A stretch of 47,206 nt of DNA. Source: an uncultured Verrucomicrobiota bacterium (GTDB lineage Bacteria; Verrucomicrobiota; Verrucomicrobiia; Verrucomicrobiales; Verrucomicrobiaceae). The stretch covers positions 1 to 47,206 of the forward strand of contig CAJCCF010000006.1 in assembly GCA_903960845.1 (NCBI GenBank). The letters run 5' to 3'. Of the stretch, positions 13,213-20,676 are shown piece after piece (position 1 is the first letter of the stretch; each line of letters starts with the position of its first letter). The notes below the pieces were generated by a model. The model was not told the DNA's origin, searched no databases, and was given only the letters and a program-made list of their open reading frames with translations. The position numbers and the translations under genes were made by a program.

Positions 13213-14244
13213 TCAGCCGCATAGTACGCGTTTCACACCAGAGCCAAGCTCTGACAACCCGAACTTCACTGGTAAGAATTGCTCAACCAGCGCCATGTTC
13301 GTCCGCGCGTGATCAGTGATCGTGAAGGTGTGAAACACCCCTCCGCCGGCGAGCGCCATGGGCAACAGTAACTGATCGGCCAGATGCAAGCCAACGGGCG
13401 CCATCGAGGCCAGATAGCTGCGCAGGCCCTTTGCCGCGCCCATGGCGACAGCTTCGGCGGATTTGCCGAGCTGCGCGATGCCGGTGCTGATTTCGCAGAC
13501 CTTTGCAAAACGGGCACCAATCAGGATGGCATTGCCGGGGCCGGTGCTCTCGTTCGCGTAGCGTAGATCGAACTGATTTTCGGGCCATTCGAGCAGTTTG
13601 GCGGCGGTCACGATTTCGCGCTTGGCGATCTCGCCGGGCAGATGCGCGTGCAGCACGCGGCCAAAGGTTTCCGCCAGCTCGCCGCGTTCGGTGAGCTTGA
13701 GCTTTTTCCATTTTTTGATCGGCGAGATTTCCGCCGTGAGCACGCCGCCGCCTGCCTGCATGAACCCGGGGCGCTCCAGCGTCACCGTCGCATTCACGCC
13801 CATTCTCCGGAGCACAGGCAGGAAGCATTGCTCGATGAACTCAAACGGCGGAGCCATCGGGTTGTGCGTGCCGCCTTCGATGCGCAGTGTGCTGGAGGCT
13901 TCCGCATGAAGCAGAGCGGGCAGCAGCGTCTGCAACACGAGCGTCGTGCTGCCGCCGGAGCCGATGGCAAAGCGGTAGTCGCCCGCTGTGATCTGGCCGG
14001 GCTGGAAAACGAGTTCTGTGGAGCCCATTTCGGCCCCTTCGACCTCCGCGCCGCAAACTTCCGCCGCCGCTTTCACGCAGGTGAGGTGCTGACGCATCAG
14101 ACCCGGCTTCGGCCGCTTCCCGCGAATGTTCGTCATCCGAAACGCCCGCCCCGTGACCAGCGCCAGCGACAGCGAAGACCGCAGCAACTGCCCGCCGCCG
14201 GATTCGCCGGAGATGGAGAGAATGGAGGTGTTGGTTTTGCTCAT
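13213..14244 (-). CDS. rtcA: RNA 3'-terminal phosphate cyclase
   Basis: RtcA uses ATP to turn an RNA 3'-phosphate into a 2',3'-cyclic phosphate through an adenylated His. The 343-residue length is normal. SGESGGGQLLRSSLSLALVTG (start), IRGKRPKPGLMRQHLTCVKAA, ESTGPGNAILIGA and the active-site region TDHARTN (His near 312) are all visible. It is separated from rtcB by a small membrane-protein gene and two plus-strand genes, so it is not directly downstream of rtcB as in Escherichia coli. I see no clear GG-N10-GC promoter before it. It belongs to the same RNA-repair island as rsr, rtcB and rtcR. Confidence 0.95.
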   Translation of the reverse strand: MSKTNTSILSISGESGGGQLLRSSLSLALVTGRAFRMTNIRGKRPKPGLMRQHLTCVKAAAEVCGAEVEGAEMGSTELVFQPGQITAGDYRFAIGSGGSTTLVLQTLLPALLHAEASSTLRIEGGTHNPMAPPFEFIEQCFLPVLRRMGVNATVTLERPGFMQAGGGVLTAEISPIKKWKKLKLTERGELAETFGRVLHAHLPGEIAKREIVTAAKLLEWPENQFDLRYANESTGPGNAILIGARFAKVCEISTGIAQLGKSAEAVAMGAAKGLRSYLASMAPVGLHLADQLLLPMALAGGGVFHTFTITDHARTNMALVEQFLPVKFGLSELGSGVKRVLCG

Positions 14245-15283: not shown

Positions 15284-16771
15284 TCAATCATCCGCCTCCG
15301 CCGCGTCTTTGATGACGAAGCGGGCTTTGAGTTTGCAGACCTGCTGGGCCAGACCGGCGGCTTCGACGCTGTGGAGGACTTCTTTGAAGTCTTTGTAGGC
15401 GTTGGGGGCTTCGTCGATCGGGTATTGGCGGGCGTTGTAGAGGATGTCGTGGGTTTCGAAGTCGGCGTTGACCTCCTGCTGGTTGAGGTTGCGGGCGGCA
15501 GCTTTGCGGCCCATGCAGCGGCCAGCGCCGTGGTTGACGCTGTAGCAGCTTTTCACGGCATCGGGTTTCGCGACCATGACCACAGAACCGTCGCGTGGAT
15601 TTCCAGGCAGCAGGATGGGGTGGCCGGTTTCGGCGAAGGGCGTGTCTTTGATCGCGTGGTGACCACCGGGGAAGGCACGCGTGGCGCCTTTGCGGTGGAC
15701 CCAGGCGAGCTGGTTATCGACGACTTCCTGACGCGCGATGTTGTGGCTGATGAAGTACACGAGCTGGCCGGTCGTTCCTGGCAGCACCTCCTGGAAGGCC
15801 TCCAGCACGAGCGCGTTGATGAGCATGTGGTTCACGGTGGCGAAGTTCGCCCCGAGCGCCATGTCGTCGAGATATGCGTCCGCCTCGGGTGTGCCGAGCG
15901 GGGCATAGACGAGCTGCTTGTCTTCAGCAGGAAACGGCAGGTCCCAGGTGCGGAAGAAACCTTCCAGCGACTTGAACTGGCGCTGCGCGAGGATGTTCCC
16001 GAACCCACGCGATCCGCAGTGGCTTAGGAAGGCGACGTGATTGTCCCGCAGGCCGAAAACTTCGGCCGTGGAGCGCATCGCGGCGTCATCGGCGAGTTGC
16101 ACGATCTCGCACTCTCCAAAGTGGTTTCCACCTCCATAGGAGCCGAGCTGCATCATCTTGTTTTCGAAGCCGGAGAAGCCGTTGAACGCGCGCATCTTGT
16201 CCAGACGCTCGTGGAGCGTGGACACGTTTCCATCGTGGCCGAGGTGGGCGCTGTCTTCGCAACGCTGCGCCCACTCGGGCGGGATGCCGAGCGCTTCGCA
16301 CACGCTGCGGCTGGCACCTTCGGTGCAAGTCTGCACGCCAAGATCAGCGGACACACGGCGGGACTTTTTCGCCTCGCGCTGACCACGGCCAGGGCCGGTC
16401 GGCGTGCGCAGCAAAATGGCGTCGATGAGCCGGCGACGGATCGCCTTGTCCACGATCTCCTCGGCGGGAATGTTCATCTGGAGCAGCGACATGGAGCACT
16501 TGATGTCCACGCCGACCGGTCCCGGATAAATGTGCGTCGGCGAAACCATCACGCATCCCACCGGCGCTCCGTAACCGGAGTGCGCATCAGGATTGAGCAC
16601 GAGATCAGTCACGCCCGGCGCCGAGCGCGAGTTCAGCGCCTGCTCGATGCAGGACGGATCAAAGCCAGCGCGGATCGCCTCCGTCCCGATGACAGTGATG
16701 GGTTTTCCCGCGTTGTTGCGGACTGGGAGGATGGCTTCGGCTTCGCCGGTGATGTGGAAGGGGGAGGTCAT
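15284..16771 (-). CDS. rtcB: RNA-splicing ligase RtcB
   Basis: RtcB joins RNA 2',3'-cyclic-phosphate or 3'-phosphate ends to 5'-OH ends using GTP and Mn2+. The 495-residue protein has PDAHSGYGAPVGCV, GVDIKCSM with the metal-binding Asp and Cys (about 89 and 92), SYGGGNHFGE (His near 217), HCGSRG (His near 251), SHNIARQE (His near 343) and NHGAGRCMGRKAA (His near 414, the expected guanylylated residue). It is longer than the approximately 408-residue E. coli enzyme and similar to other long bacterial versions. It follows the Y RNA cluster; its start lies 41 bases after the terminal stem of the last Y RNA. All catalytic residues expected are present. Confidence 0.97.
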   Translation of the reverse strand: MTSPFHITGEAEAILPVRNNAGKPITVIGTEAIRAGFDPSCIEQALNSRSAPGVTDLVLNPDAHSGYGAPVGCVMVSPTHIYPGPVGVDIKCSMSLLQMNIPAEEIVDKAIRRRLIDAILLRTPTGPGRGQREAKKSRRVSADLGVQTCTEGASRSVCEALGIPPEWAQRCEDSAHLGHDGNVSTLHERLDKMRAFNGFSGFENKMMQLGSYGGGNHFGECEIVQLADDAAMRSTAEVFGLRDNHVAFLSHCGSRGFGNILAQRQFKSLEGFFRTWDLPFPAEDKQLVYAPLGTPEADAYLDDMALGANFATVNHMLINALVLEAFQEVLPGTTGQLVYFISHNIARQEVVDNQLAWVHRKGATRAFPGGHHAIKDTPFAETGHPILLPGNPRDGSVVMVAKPDAVKSCYSVNHGAGRCMGRKAAARNLNQQEVNADFETHDILYNARQYPIDEAPNAYKDFKEVLHSVEAAGLAQQVCKLKARFVIKDAAEADD

Positions 16772-16811
16772 TTATGATTTAGTATCTATGAATTAGAATT
16801 TGGAAAAAGGC

Positions 16812-16935
16812 GGTGACGACAAGGGGTGATGAAACATTGCTCTACCAGACTGAGCTACGGTCCCGAAAAAATGGATTGGTAGGACCGGTCGGATTCGAAC
16901 CCACGACATATGTAGTTCCATCGGCATTCGTCACC
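16812..16935 (-). ncRNA. Y RNA 1 (YrlA-like) with complete permuted tRNA body and encoded CCA
   Basis: The 124-nt unit is closed by an 8-bp stem, GGUGACGA with UCGUCACC. An inner stem, GAUGGAAC with GUUUCAUC, follows the putative Ro60-binding core (5' GACGAAUGCC, 3' ACCCCUUGUC). Its centre is a tRNA in permuted order: T arm (16904-16888, loop UUCGAAU, one G-G mismatch in the stem), acceptor 3' strand CGGUCCU, ACCA, a 12-nt linker, acceptor 5' strand GGGACCG, UA, then a D arm with a 9-nt loop containing GG. The acceptor stem has 7 pairs with one G-U. Only the anticodon arm is missing, replaced by the Ro60-binding stem. Most YrlA RNAs I know close the acceptor with a small loop, so the CCA is unusual. 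Confidence 0.88.
16839..16904 (-). other. Permuted tRNA-like module of Y RNA 1
   Basis: On the minus strand the order is T arm 16904-16888, acceptor 3' strand 16887-16881, ACCA 16880-16877, linker 16876-16865 (AUCCAUUUUUUC), acceptor 5' strand 16864-16858, U8-A9 equivalents 16857-16856, D arm 16855-16839. This is the same layout as permuted tRNA genes in some algae and archaea. RNase P and a 3'-end nuclease could in principle excise the linker. Confidence 0.85.
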
Positions 16936-16965
16936 ATTTGGGGTGATTGATTTTGAAGATGAAAG

Positions 16966-17056
16966 TGGCGACAAGGGTGGAGAGACTTCTCCGCATTGCT
17001 GCGGGGCGGGGGTCGAACCCGCTGGTTACCGATGTAGTCCGCTCCGGCATTCGCCA
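16966..17056 (-). ncRNA. Y RNA 2, T-arm-only tRNA remnant
   Basis: The 91-nt unit is closed by UGGCGA/UCGCCA (6 bp). The inner stem pairs GGAG with CUCC and GACU with AGUC. A perfect T arm is present at 17022-17006 (stem GCGGG/CCCGC, loop UUCGACC). It is followed by a hairpin CCGC-AGCAAU-GCGG at 17004-16991 in place of the acceptor stem. There is no D arm. The core GGCGAAUGCC and ACCCUUGUC matches the other units. It may be a reduced form of the YrlA module or a separate class. Confidence 0.8.
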
Positions 17057-17082
17057 GGATGATAGGTGATTAGTTAATGAGG

Positions 17083-17206
17083 TGATGGCGACAAGGAGAT
17101 CGAGAAACATTTCAATTGCTCTACCGACTGAGCTACTGCCGAAGCAGGCAGGGCTCGAACCTGCGACCAGTTGAGTACATGTAGTTCCTCAGGGCATTCG
17201 CCATCA
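17083..17206 (-). ncRNA. Y RNA 3, YrlA-like with UUCG-capped acceptor stem
   Basis: The 124-nt unit is closed by UGAUGGCGA/UCGCCAUCA (9 bp), with inner stem GAGGAAC/GUUUCUC. The module is a T arm with a perfect 5-bp stem and 7-nt loop (17164-17148), then CUGC-UUCG-GCAG (17147-17136), a 4-bp acceptor-like stem capped by a UUCG tetraloop, UA, and a D arm GCUC-AGUCGGUA-GAGC (17133-17118). This matches the published picture of YrlA as a tRNA mimic whose acceptor end is closed. It should be a substrate for tRNA-modifying enzymes acting on D and T loops, as known for YrlA. Confidence 0.88.
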
Positions 17207-17226
17207 TTTGAGAAGGGGTTGAGAGA

Positions 17227-17300
17227 TGGAGCCTGGTGACAAGGAATGGAGAGACGTGACAGTTTGGAATGTAGTCCGCTCCAGCATTCACCAGGCTCCA
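17227..17300 (-). ncRNA. Y RNA 4, minimal Y RNA without tRNA module
   Basis: The 74-nt unit has the longest terminal stem, UGGAGCCUGGUGA with UCACCAGGCUCCA (13 perfect pairs). The core is GGUGAAUGCU with AUUCCUUGUC, and the inner stem pairs GGAG/CUCC and GAC/GUC around a loop of about 18 nt. It has no T or D arm. It begins 8 nt after the rsr stop, so it may also act as a 3' stabiliser or processing site for the rsr mRNA. It resembles a bare Ro60-binding module. Confidence 0.8.
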
Positions 17301-17308
17301 AAGTGTTT

Positions 17309-18877
17309 TTAGAGTGGGGTTTGATCGATCTGGCCGACCCAGTGGTCGCCGGTGAGTTCACCGCTCGCGAAAGCGGCGATCACCTGGAACACGGAGTCGG
17401 AGAAACCGCCGATGTTGAGGATGTCCTCGCGCTCCTTGACCTGCGTGGTGGCATAAGGCTGGATATCGAGGCACACGAGACGGGCTTTTGGATTCCGCTG
17501 CTTGAACTTCATCCATTCGCTCATCGTGCGTGTGGCCGAGCCACCGAAGCGGCCGTGCTGAGGCGTGTCCATCCACGACTCGTTGTCGGAGACGTAGATC
17601 ACCAGATCGGCTTGCACATTGCGGGCATTCAGATCGATGAGCACGGCGCTGCAGTTCGTCCCGCCGCAAGGCAGAGACGCGAGCTTCTGCGCGTTCGTCA
17701 TCACGGAATCACGAGGATTCAGCTTCACACGAACGACATTGGTCTCAAACGGCAGCACCTCGGCATCGCGGTTCTGGCGCAGGAAAGCGGCGGCGACGAG
17801 CGCGGCCACATCGATGCAGCGCACCTTGCTCGTGGCGCCCTTGCGGACACCGGTCACAGGCGAGTGCATGGAGCCGGACACGTCTGGAGCCACGATCACT
17901 TTCCCAGCCACCACAGGCACATTGGAGATGGCGATCTCCATCGCATCCTGCAGCGCTTCCTTCACCTCGTGCGGCACTTCCGCGCCGACGTTGTGATAGG
18001 CGGCCATGAGCTGATACGGGAACACTTTGGCGCGACGCACCTGCTCCTCGCTGCGCAGACGGCTGGCGATGAGGCGGGTGATCTCCTTCACGGAGAACAC
18101 GCCATGACGGGCAAAGGTGTTCAGGTTCATTCGCGTCATCTGCCATGGGGCACGACGCGCGATGGCCTGCCACTGCTCTGCCGTCAAAGGCAGCGCGGTG
18201 AGCATCTGGAACGGCACCTCCGGCGGATTACCCGCAGGATCAGCCTTCCAGGCCTCGAACTCCCGCACGACATGCGGCAGTTCTGACGCCTCGTGCTTTC
18301 GCCCGATCAGATAACCGTAGAGCGCCTCGCGGGTCTTCGTCGCCGGACGTGGGTGCACCATTTTCACGATGTCCGCCAGCGATGGCGACTGACCGACGTC
18401 CGAGCGGAAGATTGCCTCGTCCGAGCGGGTCTCGAACCAACGGCGCACGAGGCGCTTTGGCAGGGAACCGAGAGACTTCCGACCCGTCACGCCGGAGCGA
18501 AGGATCTGGACGAAGTTCCGCAACATTTTGGCGTCGTCGATCACGCGATCAAAGATCAGCTCCAGGCGCTCGGCATCACGGGCCGCCAGCACGGCGCAAA
18601 GCAGCGCAGGCACATCCTTCATGAAACCCTTCTGGCGGCAGTGTAGCGCCGTGCGGGCGATGAAATCGGTCGGGACATTCTCACACAGCTTCAGCACCTG
18701 CTGGAGCTGGTCCTCCGCCGTGGCGTAATAGGTGCGGTTCAGGCAACCCGTGGCCGCAAACTGCGCCAGTGCCTGACGCGGAGCGAGGGTGTAGGCCCGG
18801 CCTCCGGCTTCGTTGAAGCTGTCAGCCTTCGGAGCAAGGGCTCCGGCGATGGTTTGAAAGAGAGTTTTGTTAGCCAT
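17309..18877 (-). CDS. rsr: Ro60 orthologue Rsr (TROVE domain protein)
   Basis: The ATG at 18877 (MANKTLFQT) gives 522 residues; a longer frame to 19024 would cross the promoter. The N-terminal part is a HEAT-like TROVE ring (about 20-320). The C-terminal von Willebrand A domain has an intact MIDAS motif DVSGS at 332-336. Ro60 is a ring that binds misfolded RNA ends in its hole and Y RNAs on its outer surface. In bacteria Rsr works with PNPase in RNA decay and with Y RNA as a tether or gate. Here it is followed directly by four candidate Y RNAs and rtcB, consistent with the known rsr-yrl-rtcB arrangement. Confidence 0.95.
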   Translation of the reverse strand: MANKTLFQTIAGALAPKADSFNEAGGRAYTLAPRQALAQFAATGCLNRTYYATAEDQLQQVLKLCENVPTDFIARTALHCRQKGFMKDVPALLCAVLAARDAERLELIFDRVIDDAKMLRNFVQILRSGVTGRKSLGSLPKRLVRRWFETRSDEAIFRSDVGQSPSLADIVKMVHPRPATKTREALYGYLIGRKHEASELPHVVREFEAWKADPAGNPPEVPFQMLTALPLTAEQWQAIARRAPWQMTRMNLNTFARHGVFSVKEITRLIASRLRSEEQVRRAKVFPYQLMAAYHNVGAEVPHEVKEALQDAMEIAISNVPVVAGKVIVAPDVSGSMHSPVTGVRKGATSKVRCIDVAALVAAAFLRQNRDAEVLPFETNVVRVKLNPRDSVMTNAQKLASLPCGGTNCSAVLIDLNARNVQADLVIYVSDNESWMDTPQHGRFGGSATRTMSEWMKFKQRNPKARLVCLDIQPYATTQVKEREDILNIGGFSDSVFQVIAAFASGELTGDHWVGQIDQTPL

Positions 18878-18915
18878 GTTGGTTTCGGGTGGTTGATCCC
18901 GTGTGCCAATCTCTA

Positions 18916-18933
18916 TTGCTGGTGGTGTGCCAA
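18916..18933 (-). promoter_or_regulatory. Sigma-54 promoter candidate for rsr-Y RNA-rtcB
   Basis: On the minus strand TTGGCAC is followed by CAGCAA so that the invariant GG (18931-18930) and GC (18919-18918) are exactly 10 bases apart. The -24 box is perfect; the -12 box is CAGC rather than TTGC. Transcription would start near 18906, about 29 bases before the rsr ATG. RtcR, encoded divergently, is the expected activator. Confidence 0.7.
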
Positions 18934-18943
18934 GTTTTGGCAC
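18927..18943. promoter_or_regulatory. Palindrome GTGCCAA-GTT-TTGGCAC shared by divergent promoters
   Basis: Seven-base perfect arms (18927-18933 and 18937-18943) put one -24-like box on each strand, back to back. This arrangement would let two sigma-54 polymerases compete or be coordinated. It may also simply reflect the two promoters. Confidence 0.5.
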
Positions 18944-18952
18944 GGAGGGGGC
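18937..18952 (+). promoter_or_regulatory. Possible sigma-54 promoter for rtcR
   Basis: TTGGCAC at 18937-18943 is followed by GC at 18951-18952, again with GG-N10-GC spacing. The -12 box is GGGC, so it is weaker than the rsr element. It is 122 bases before the rtcR ATG. Autoregulation would be implied if it is used. Confidence 0.35.
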
Positions 18953-19044
18953 GGAAGACGCTGGAAGCCTTGTAAATACAGGGGAAGAAAAAAATTCTGG
19001 CTTTTTAGCAGCCAAGTTTAACACCTCATTAAATCCTGATTGTT

Positions 19045-19074: not shown

Positions 19075-20676
19075 ATGGCTTCCGCTAAACCCATCATCAC
19101 TTTCGGCTTCCTCGGCTCTACTTTGGACCGTGCTCAAGGCGCGGAGCGGTGGTCAAAATGGCGGCCGACGGTTGCGATGTGTCAGCAGGAGGATTTGCTC
19201 ATTTCGCGGCTGGAACTGCTCGTGGAGCCCAAGTTTGCCGACCTGGCGAAACGTGTGGTCGCGGACATCGCAAAGGTCTCACCGGAGACGGAGGTGGTGG
19301 TGCATGAATTTGCGCTGAAGGACCCGTGGGACTTTCAGGAGGTGTATGAGCGGCTTTACGATTTCGTGCGCGGCTATGACTTCCAGCCTGAACTGGAGGA
19401 CTACCTCATCCATCTGACGACGGGGACTCACGTGGCGCAGATTTGCTGGTTCCTGCTGAATGAGGCGAACTTCATCCCGGCGCGGCTGCTGCAAACCTCG
19501 CCGTCACGCGAAGGCGGACGCGATGCGAAAGCCTCGGGGCGCTACGAGATCATCGACATCGACCTCTCCAAGTATGATCGGCTCGCCACTCGCTTCGCGC
19601 AGGAGCAGGAGCGAACGCTGGATTTCCTGAAAAGCGGCATCGCCACGAAGAACAAGGGCTTCAACAAACTCATCGAACAGATCGAACTCGTCGCGGTGAG
19701 CTCGAAGGCTCCGATCCTCATCACCGGACCGACGGGCGCAGGCAAATCCATGCTCGCAGGCCGCATCTATGAACTGCGACGCTCGCGGGCCGGTTTGAGC
19801 GGCCGATTCGTCGAAGTGAACTGCGCCACGCTGCGTGGCGATCAGGCGATGTCGGCGTTGTTTGGCCACAAACGCGGCTCATTCACCGGAGCGCAGTCGG
19901 ATCGGCCCGGATTGCTCAAAGAGGCCGACAAAGGCCTGATTTTCCTCGATGAGATCGGCGAACTCGGTCTCGACGAGCAGGCCATGCTTTTGCGTGCTTT
20001 GGAAGACAAAACCTTCCTGCCGCTGGGAAGCGACAAGGCCGTGCAGAGCGACTTCCAGCTCATCGCCGGCACGAATCGCGATCTGCGTTCGCAAGTAGCT
20101 GCAGGTAAATTCAGGGATGACTTGCTGGCCCGGATCAATCTGTGGACCTTCTCGCTGCCTGGCCTAGCGGAACGTCGCGAAGACATCGCCGCAAACCTCG
20201 ATTTCGAGCTTGAGCGCTACGCCAAAAGCCATCGCAAACAGGTGCGCATGAACAAGGAGGCACGCGAAGCCTTTCTCAAGTTTGCCCGCAATCCCGACTC
20301 AAAATGGAGCGCGAATTTTCGTGACTTGAACGCGGCAGTAACCCGCATGGCGACGCTGGCGCCAAAGGGACGCATCACACTCAGCGAAGTGGAGGCGGAG
20401 ATCGAGCGACTGCTCGGAGGGTGGCGTGATGCAGCAGATCATGGCCGGACCTTGGAGTGCGATGTTCTGGGTGAAAAGCAGCGCGCTGAGATTGATCCGT
20501 TTGATTTGGCCCAGCTCGATTTTGTTTTGAAAGTGTGCCGTGAGAGCAAGACCCTGTCTGACGCTGGACGGAAGCTGTATGCAGTGTCGCGGTCGAAGCG
20601 TCGTGTCATGAACGATGCCGATCGGCTGAAAAAGTATTTGCTGCGCTTTGGGCTGAAGTGGGATGACCTGAAGTGA
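19075..20676 (+). CDS. rtcR: RtcR, sigma-54-dependent activator of RNA repair genes
   Basis: This 533-residue regulator has an N-terminal CARF domain (about 1-185), with the ligand-pocket motif HLTTGTHVAQ near 113-122, and then an AAA+ domain. Walker A is GPTGAGKS (218-225), the sigma-54 contact loop is GSFTGA (268-273) and Walker B is GLIFLDE (287-293). The C-terminal part is the usual DNA-binding region. RtcR of enteric bacteria is activated by tRNA fragments ending in 2',3'-cyclic phosphate and drives the rsr-rtcBA operon. The gene is divergent from rsr, separated by 197 bases with sigma-54-like elements. Confidence 0.96.
   Translation: MASAKPIITFGFLGSTLDRAQGAERWSKWRPTVAMCQQEDLLISRLELLVEPKFADLAKRVVADIAKVSPETEVVVHEFALKDPWDFQEVYERLYDFVRGYDFQPELEDYLIHLTTGTHVAQICWFLLNEANFIPARLLQTSPSREGGRDAKASGRYEIIDIDLSKYDRLATRFAQEQERTLDFLKSGIATKNKGFNKLIEQIELVAVSSKAPILITGPTGAGKSMLAGRIYELRRSRAGLSGRFVEVNCATLRGDQAMSALFGHKRGSFTGAQSDRPGLLKEADKGLIFLDEIGELGLDEQAMLLRALEDKTFLPLGSDKAVQSDFQLIAGTNRDLRSQVAAGKFRDDLLARINLWTFSLPGLAERREDIAANLDFELERYAKSHRKQVRMNKEAREAFLKFARNPDSKWSANFRDLNAAVTRMATLAPKGRITLSEVEAEIERLLGGWRDAADHGRTLECDVLGEKQRAEIDPFDLAQLDFVLKVCRESKTLSDAGRKLYAVSRSKRRVMNDADRLKKYLLRFGLKWDDLK

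Follow-up and report, generated by a model that had tools for sequence, protein, structure and literature searches.

The circularly permuted tRNA fold is already the published nature of YrlA, represented by structure 6CU1 as recounted in PMC11472068. In Salmonella, damaged tRNAs induce the type of locus examined here (PMC7790460). A feature that recurs below, a G:U wobble at acceptor pair 3:70, is the chief determinant for AlaRS and a conserved element of tmRNA (PMC3985003).

Here, we analysed a 47,206-nt stretch from an uncultured Verrucomicrobiota bacterium (family Verrucomicrobiaceae; GenBank assembly GCA_903960845.1, contig CAJCCF010000006.1), hereafter the window, which contains four Y RNAs in an RNA-repair locus. 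Our favoured explanation, which we consider probable, is that one of them, Y1, is a repair-locus YrlA of an open-acceptor subclass, in which the acceptor end has been selected as a lookalike of a pre-tRNA end and most likely engages tRNA-end enzymes.

Y RNA array in the rsr/rtc locus

All four Y RNAs lie between rsr and rtcB, with Y1 as the rtcB-proximal one, rtcA downstream of the array and rtcR divergent upstream:

13213-14244, minus strand: rtcA, RNA 3'-phosphate cyclase (PF01137, 7.8e-78)
15284-16771, minus strand: rtcB, RNA ligase (PF01139, 3.2e-99)
16812-16935, minus strand: Y1, YrlA-type Y RNA with a permuted tRNA module (RF02553 and orthologue alignment)
16962-17057, minus strand: Y2, Y RNA with a T-arm-like hairpin and without a D arm (RF02553, 29.6 bits)
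17082-17204, minus strand: Y3, YrlA with a closed 4-bp acceptor hairpin, CUGC-UUCG-GCAG (RF02553, 61.4 bits)
17228-17299, minus strand: Y4, probably a Y RNA of minimal type that lacks a tRNA-like module (sequence reading; repeat)
17309-19024, minus strand: rsr, Ro60 orthologue with TROVE and Ro60 vWA domains (PF25045, 6.7e-17; PF05731, 4.2e-6)
19075-20676, plus strand: rtcR, sigma-54 activator of the repair operon (PF06956, 3.2e-80)

Y1 scores 81.8 bits against the Rfam covariance model RF02553, above the gathering threshold of 69, and a Ro60 orthologue adjoins it (domains in 17309-19024), the neighbourhood in which a YrlA is found. The probable Y4 carries a 40-nt repeat with 80% identity to the 5' part of Y2. 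The array at 16810-17300 mixes tRNA content, from an open acceptor through a T arm only and a closed acceptor to none. The order rtcR, rsr, Y RNA, rtcB is common to the window and a Rhizobium plasmid. A tmRNA identity was rejected, as the Rfam search gave no RF00023 match in the window.

Anatomy of Y1

Read on the minus strand from 5' to 3', Y1 consists of the following parts:

16929-16935, minus strand: 5' strand GGUGACG of the outer Ro60-binding stem, with the conserved AAUGC after it; pairs with 16812-16818 (fold, orthologues)
16888-16904, minus strand: T arm, positions 49-65, with T loop UUCGAAU at 16899-16893 and a G51.G63 stem mismatch
16881-16887, minus strand: acceptor 3' strand CGGUCCU, positions 66-72 (CGGUCCC in most orthologues)
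16877-16880, minus strand: A73-C74-C75-A76 (ACCU, ACCC or ACUU in the same genus, ACCA in sister-family modules)
16865-16876, minus strand: 12-nt linker closing the acceptor end (the orthologues' whole loop, including 73-76, has 7-17 nt)
16858-16864, minus strand: acceptor 5' strand GGGACCG, positions 1-7 (invariant across 11 orthologues)
16839-16857, minus strand: U8-A9 (16857-16856) and D arm (GCUC...GAGC, 16855-16839)
16812-16818, minus strand: 3' strand of the outer stem, CGUCACC (sequence, fold, orthologues)

An earlier sequence-only reading had proposed the order T arm, acceptor 3' strand, ACCA, 12-nt linker, acceptor 5' strand, U8-A9 and D arm, which is correct to the base, and the tRNA-like ends that it named (5' at 16864, 3' at 16877) match the sequence anatomy. 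Its statement that every tRNA element except the anticodon arm is present also holds, but it overlooked the G51.G63 mismatch in the T stem and the G1:U72 wobble in the acceptor.

The T arm, acceptor helix and D arm in permuted order that characterize a YrlA are all found in Y1, with a single mismatch in a T stem that is intact in the orthologues (GUGGG/CCCAC). Likewise, the 7-bp acceptor, T arm and 3' RCCA of a pre-tRNA are present, the last as ACCA, and the acceptor helix comprises six Watson-Crick pairs and the G1:U72 wobble. The acceptor end of Y1, including the CCA tail, is a near-exact tRNA copy set within a rearranged tRNA. The folding z-score is poor (-1.2), and the structure is deduced from homology and covariation, not from folding energy. 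The host tRNA nearest in sequence is tRNA-Pro(UGG), from which the acceptor is offset by one base, so that Y1 is not a recent tRNA copy. CCA is encoded in 27 of the 29 host tRNA genes.

Orthologues in the genus and the order

The same Y1 is present in 11 same-genus genomes. The GGGACCG/CGGUCCC helix is kept in all 11 orthologues, with only the one-sided single changes C70U and C71U (one orthologue each), while the sequence after the stem reads ACCU, ACCC or ACUU (ACCT, ACCC or ACTT in DNA) in closing loops of 7 to 17 nt. With U, C or A at position 76, CCA on its own does not exceed chance in this genus; the helix is therefore constrained and the terminal A is not. Since ACCA was found in none of the 11 same-genus orthologues, we rejected it as a genus-conserved feature. 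The window copy departs from the 11 orthologues at C63G, C72U and A76 and is about 15 nt shorter on the anticodon side, and because of these differences and the missing nucleotides it looks somewhat degraded, in what would be mild decay.

A search of 387 Verrucomicrobiales genomes, together with relatives fetched before, gave 64 long-acceptor modules with loops starting with ACCU (10), ACCA (9), ACUU (5) or ACCC (1). Besides the window, ACCA occurs in eight of these 64 modules, all from one sister family, with the loops ACCAUCGAC, ACCAAAUAU and ACCAUUUAC. The counts indicate that ACC has been retained broadly among open-loop modules of the order, and ACCA in one family; on this sequence comparison, the CCA encoded in the window is one of the forms of an ACCW that Verrucomicrobiales conserve loosely. 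Comparison of orthologous loci, the check proposed for conservation of ACCA and the 7-bp stem, thus gives a divided answer, with the pairing kept and ACCA absent from the genus, yet present in the sister family and, as NCCA, in Alphaproteobacteria.

For the window copy alone, the encoded CCA could be a coincidence in a decaying RNA, an explanation compatible with the one we favour for the subclass. ACCA is one base away from ACCU, and the T-stem G.G mismatch and G1:U72 are unique to this copy among the orthologues; however, the eight sister-family modules make ACCA a recurrent state, which was possibly retained and not accidental. We regard coincidence as a tentative possibility that deserves serious consideration. 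The favoured explanation, a selected acceptor end, concerns the wider subclass.

Acceptor ends of YrlA modules across bacteria

The scan pattern fixed CGAAUGC, GGUUCGA and UAGCUCA and left the acceptor free, with divergent YrlA falling outside it, and returned at least 116 genome stretches and 76 viral stretches. For the genus statistics, one module was drawn per genus, giving 69 genera among the matches listed, between which deep relatedness remains. Sub-threshold RF02553 matches in other Verrucomicrobiota (L263-L279) proved to be identical tRNA genes in tandem, which can mislead searches for permuted tRNAs by giving false positives; these weak matches were left out of the statistics.

In the 113 genome modules with room among the matches listed, pairing is 0.90-0.98 at 1:72 to 7:66 and falls to 0.50 at -1:73 and 0.43 at -2:74. 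The two strands covary across genera, with 95% paired compared to 61% after strands were swapped between modules (matches listed). Exactly 7 bp are found in 43 of 84 modules with a loop of at least 6 (open), and short-loop (closed) modules have stems of 4-9 bp without a preferred length, both among the matches listed. According to the sequence-only reading, known YrlA have a short closed stem, which would make a full acceptor new. In the Rfam consensus, however, the stem already measures 6 bp, and 7 bp is the commonest length; as 7 bp is the norm among YrlA modules, acceptor length as a novelty was rejected.

Among the matches listed, 14.8 of 69 genera have CCA at positions 74-76, compared to 1.2 in loop shuffles (maximum 5 over 500); at neighbouring loop offsets, it is found in 0-3 of approximately 130. 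The main source of this signal, among the matches listed, is Alphaproteobacteria, in which 20 of 42 modules have NCCA, and CCA is absent from all 21 beta- and gammaproteobacterial modules, which are otherwise alike. Among the matches listed, open modules have CCA (21/71 vs 3/33) and G1:C72 (54/71 vs 13/33) more often than closed ones. Eight of ten Rhizobium and Shinella plasmid records have UCCA or CCCA in the canonical register, and of the remaining two modules one has CCA shifted by one and the other UCCC. The leader bases A-2 U-1, an RNase P preference, are weakly enriched in CCA modules (9.3/16 vs 4.5, shuffle maximum 10), and only in these, among the matches listed. What holds of the sequence-only interpretation is that a full acceptor and a CCA are both real and apparently selected across many genomes, the full-length acceptor itself being common.

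The loops of betaproteobacterial and similar YrlA (L073, L080, L086, L145, L152, L166) have a common conserved NNAUCAGG, not CCA. The viral contigs L230, L232 and L237 also have YrlA modules, in which a 7-nt acceptor 3' strand runs into ACCA or GCCA.

Alanine signature of the acceptor

G:U occupies pair 3:70 in 21.6 of 69 genera, compared to 5.9 by within-stem pair shuffles (maximum 14), and G:U at any other acceptor pair occurs in at most 6 of 69, among the matches listed. These G3:U70 modules come from at least six phyla among the matches listed (Acidobacteriota, Bacteroidota, Myxococcota, Planctomycetota, Pseudomonadota and Verrucomicrobiota) and sit on differing stems, such as GGGGCCG/CGGCUCC, GGGCCCG/CGGGUCC and GGGACCG/CGGUUCC. 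Among the matches listed, G3:U70 is associated with A73 (odds ratio 3.5, p 0.011), shows no association with CCA (p 1.0), and is found in 28 of 71 open vs 6 of 33 closed modules. The nearest host tRNA acceptor is that of Ala for 23.7 of 69 YrlA genera, compared to 7.8 of 138 real tRNAs (matches listed). We know of no meaning for a wobble at pair 3:70 other than AlaRS recognition. By this comparative evidence, a tRNA-like acceptor end recurs in many bacterial Y RNAs, is under selection there and often resembles that of alanine tRNA.

Window Y1 itself combines A73 with G3:C70 and not with the G3:U70 of an alanine acceptor; without that wobble and with a damaged T stem, alanine charging of this copy is unlikely. 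Our literature search found no report of G3:U70, open acceptors or CCA in YrlA; it did not reach the original YrlA descriptions, and earlier notice is possible.

Related permuted RNAs

The plasmids pNF2 of Nocardia farcinica (L291, 1490-1575) and pSJF2-e of Gluconobacter (L292, 1465-1607) each encode a permuted tRNA-like RNA that has ACCA and a linker of 3 nt, neither with an annotated Ro60 within 1.5 kb. In the Gluconobacter RNA, an anticodon-type stem of 5 bp (UCGGC/GCCGA) is accompanied by a terminator-like hairpin; exact copies of the two RNAs are confined to plasmids, four of N. farcinica and one of Gluconobacter. A second RNA class in the window's bacterial family (L023-L031, L293-L296) has the outer stem UUGGGGCAGUGAGA.../...UCACUUUUCUCCCCAA; several members have a 7-bp acceptor with the loop ACCUUAC, some have anticodon-loop-like CUCAUAA or CUCUUAA hairpins, and their neighbours include a TROVE protein (L295) and an RNA ligase and RtcB (L293).

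Interpretation

Y1 belongs to an RtcR-controlled rsr-Y RNA-rtcB-rtcA repair locus, and Rsr (Ro60) would be expected to bind it at the outer stem. The far end of Y1 is a circularly permuted tRNA in which the Ro60-binding stem takes the place of the anticodon arm and a loop joins the acceptor ends. Together with PMC8394870, PMC11472068 and PMC7790460, this anatomy suggests that Y1 is a tRNA mimic bound by Ro60 at a locus for RNA repair. The putative open-acceptor subclass would be defined by exactly 7 bp and a loop that often starts like a tRNA 3' tail, as A73-C-C-A/U in Verrucomicrobiales and NCCA in Alphaproteobacteria, frequently with G1:C72 and G3:U70. An acceptor end selected to resemble that of a pre-tRNA most likely engages enzymes that read tRNA ends, among which RNase P is the first candidate, since RCCA and leader bases matter to it (PMC9433436) and A-2 U-1 is weakly over-represented in CCA modules; Y1 may also take part in RNA repair. 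RNase P cleavage would yield a two-piece RNA resembling permuted tmRNA. That the linker is cut in this way is conceivable for the subclass, though not what we would expect, and decidedly unlikely for the window copy. Several observations stand against the favoured explanation: the absence of ACCA from all 11 same-genus orthologues, the T-stem mismatch and G1:U72 of a window copy without G3:U70, beta- and gammaproteobacterial modules without CCA, a weak RNase P leader signal, and Salmonella YrlA, of unspecified acceptor class here, which gave no fragments after DNA damage (PMC7790460).

If the acceptor were a purely structural mimic, the hairpin would do no more than complete a tRNA-like fold that either TruB/Dus enzymes or an effector (PNPase in the systems known) could use; the loop would then be unconstrained in sequence, and CCA and G:U would be relics of tRNA descent. 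This agrees with the published YrlA structure, described in PMC11472068 as a permuted tRNA fold (6CU1), with YrlA being a DusA/TruB substrate (PMC8394870), with the abundance of closed 4-9-bp hairpins, window Y3 included, and with the drift of ACCA within the genus. Against this stands the survival of G3:U70 in six phyla, with the other pairs varying, and of unpaired CCA at 12-fold the expected level, where relics would have been expected to decay; we consider pure mimicry rather unlikely.

A processed two-piece Y RNA goes further than the favoured explanation: RNase P would cut 5' of G1, a 3' nuclease or tRNase Z would free the 3' end, CCA would be added where unencoded, and the acceptor and Ro60 stems would hold together a nicked tRNA mimic that AlaRS could charge where G3:U70 is present, as in two-piece tmRNA. 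The enrichment of CCA and G3:U70, the exact 7 bp, A-2 U-1 in CCA modules, the encoding of CCA in nearly all host tRNA genes (27/29), and the RNase P optimum of AU/AA/AC beside the cut with use of RCCA (PMC9433436) all fit such processing, but G:U and CCA are not mutually associated, ACCA is missing elsewhere in the window's genus, and stable tetraloops close many modules, which leaves it unlikely. Its full form, a widespread Y RNA subclass cut to a tmRNA-like two-piece RNA with a genuine CCA end and charged by AlaRS where G3:U70 occurs, is distinctly improbable; if true, the Ro60/RNA-repair system would carry an RNA that can be aminoacylated or one that senses whether tRNA ends are intact. A true permuted gene for a decoding tRNA, suggested by the order of parts, is excluded by anatomy and has practically no likelihood, as the anticodon arm is absent, a conserved YrlA (Ro60) stem stands in its place, and ARAGORN found no tRNA in the window.

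Under the favoured explanation of an acceptor end selected as a pre-tRNA end, often tRNA-Ala-like, the candidate enzymes for the tRNA-like part of Y RNAs would narrow to a few, namely RNase P, tRNase Z, the CCA enzyme, AlaRS and PNPase.

Comparison with known systems

As in the permuted tRNA genes of red and green algae and Thermofilum, the last of which encodes CCA, an intervening loop joins the acceptor ends of Y1; those genes yield decoding tRNAs via a circular intermediate, whereas Y1 is without an anticodon arm. Two-piece permuted tmRNA of Alphaproteobacteria and Cyanobacteria, like Y1, is bacterial and has the order T arm, acceptor 3' strand, CCA, spacer, acceptor 5' strand, and G:U at pair 3 is common to this tmRNA and many YrlA but not to the window copy. 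Unlike tmRNA, for which alone the two-piece form is known, Y1 has no tag reading frame or SmpB-type D region, but a full D arm and a Ro60 stem. The closest system is YrlA (RF02553; Salmonella 6CU1), with which Y1 shares the Ro60-binding stem, the permuted T arm-acceptor-D arm and a place beside rsr and rtcB; the open-acceptor subclass is set apart by exactly 7 bp, a loop starting with ACCA or NCCA and often G3:U70.
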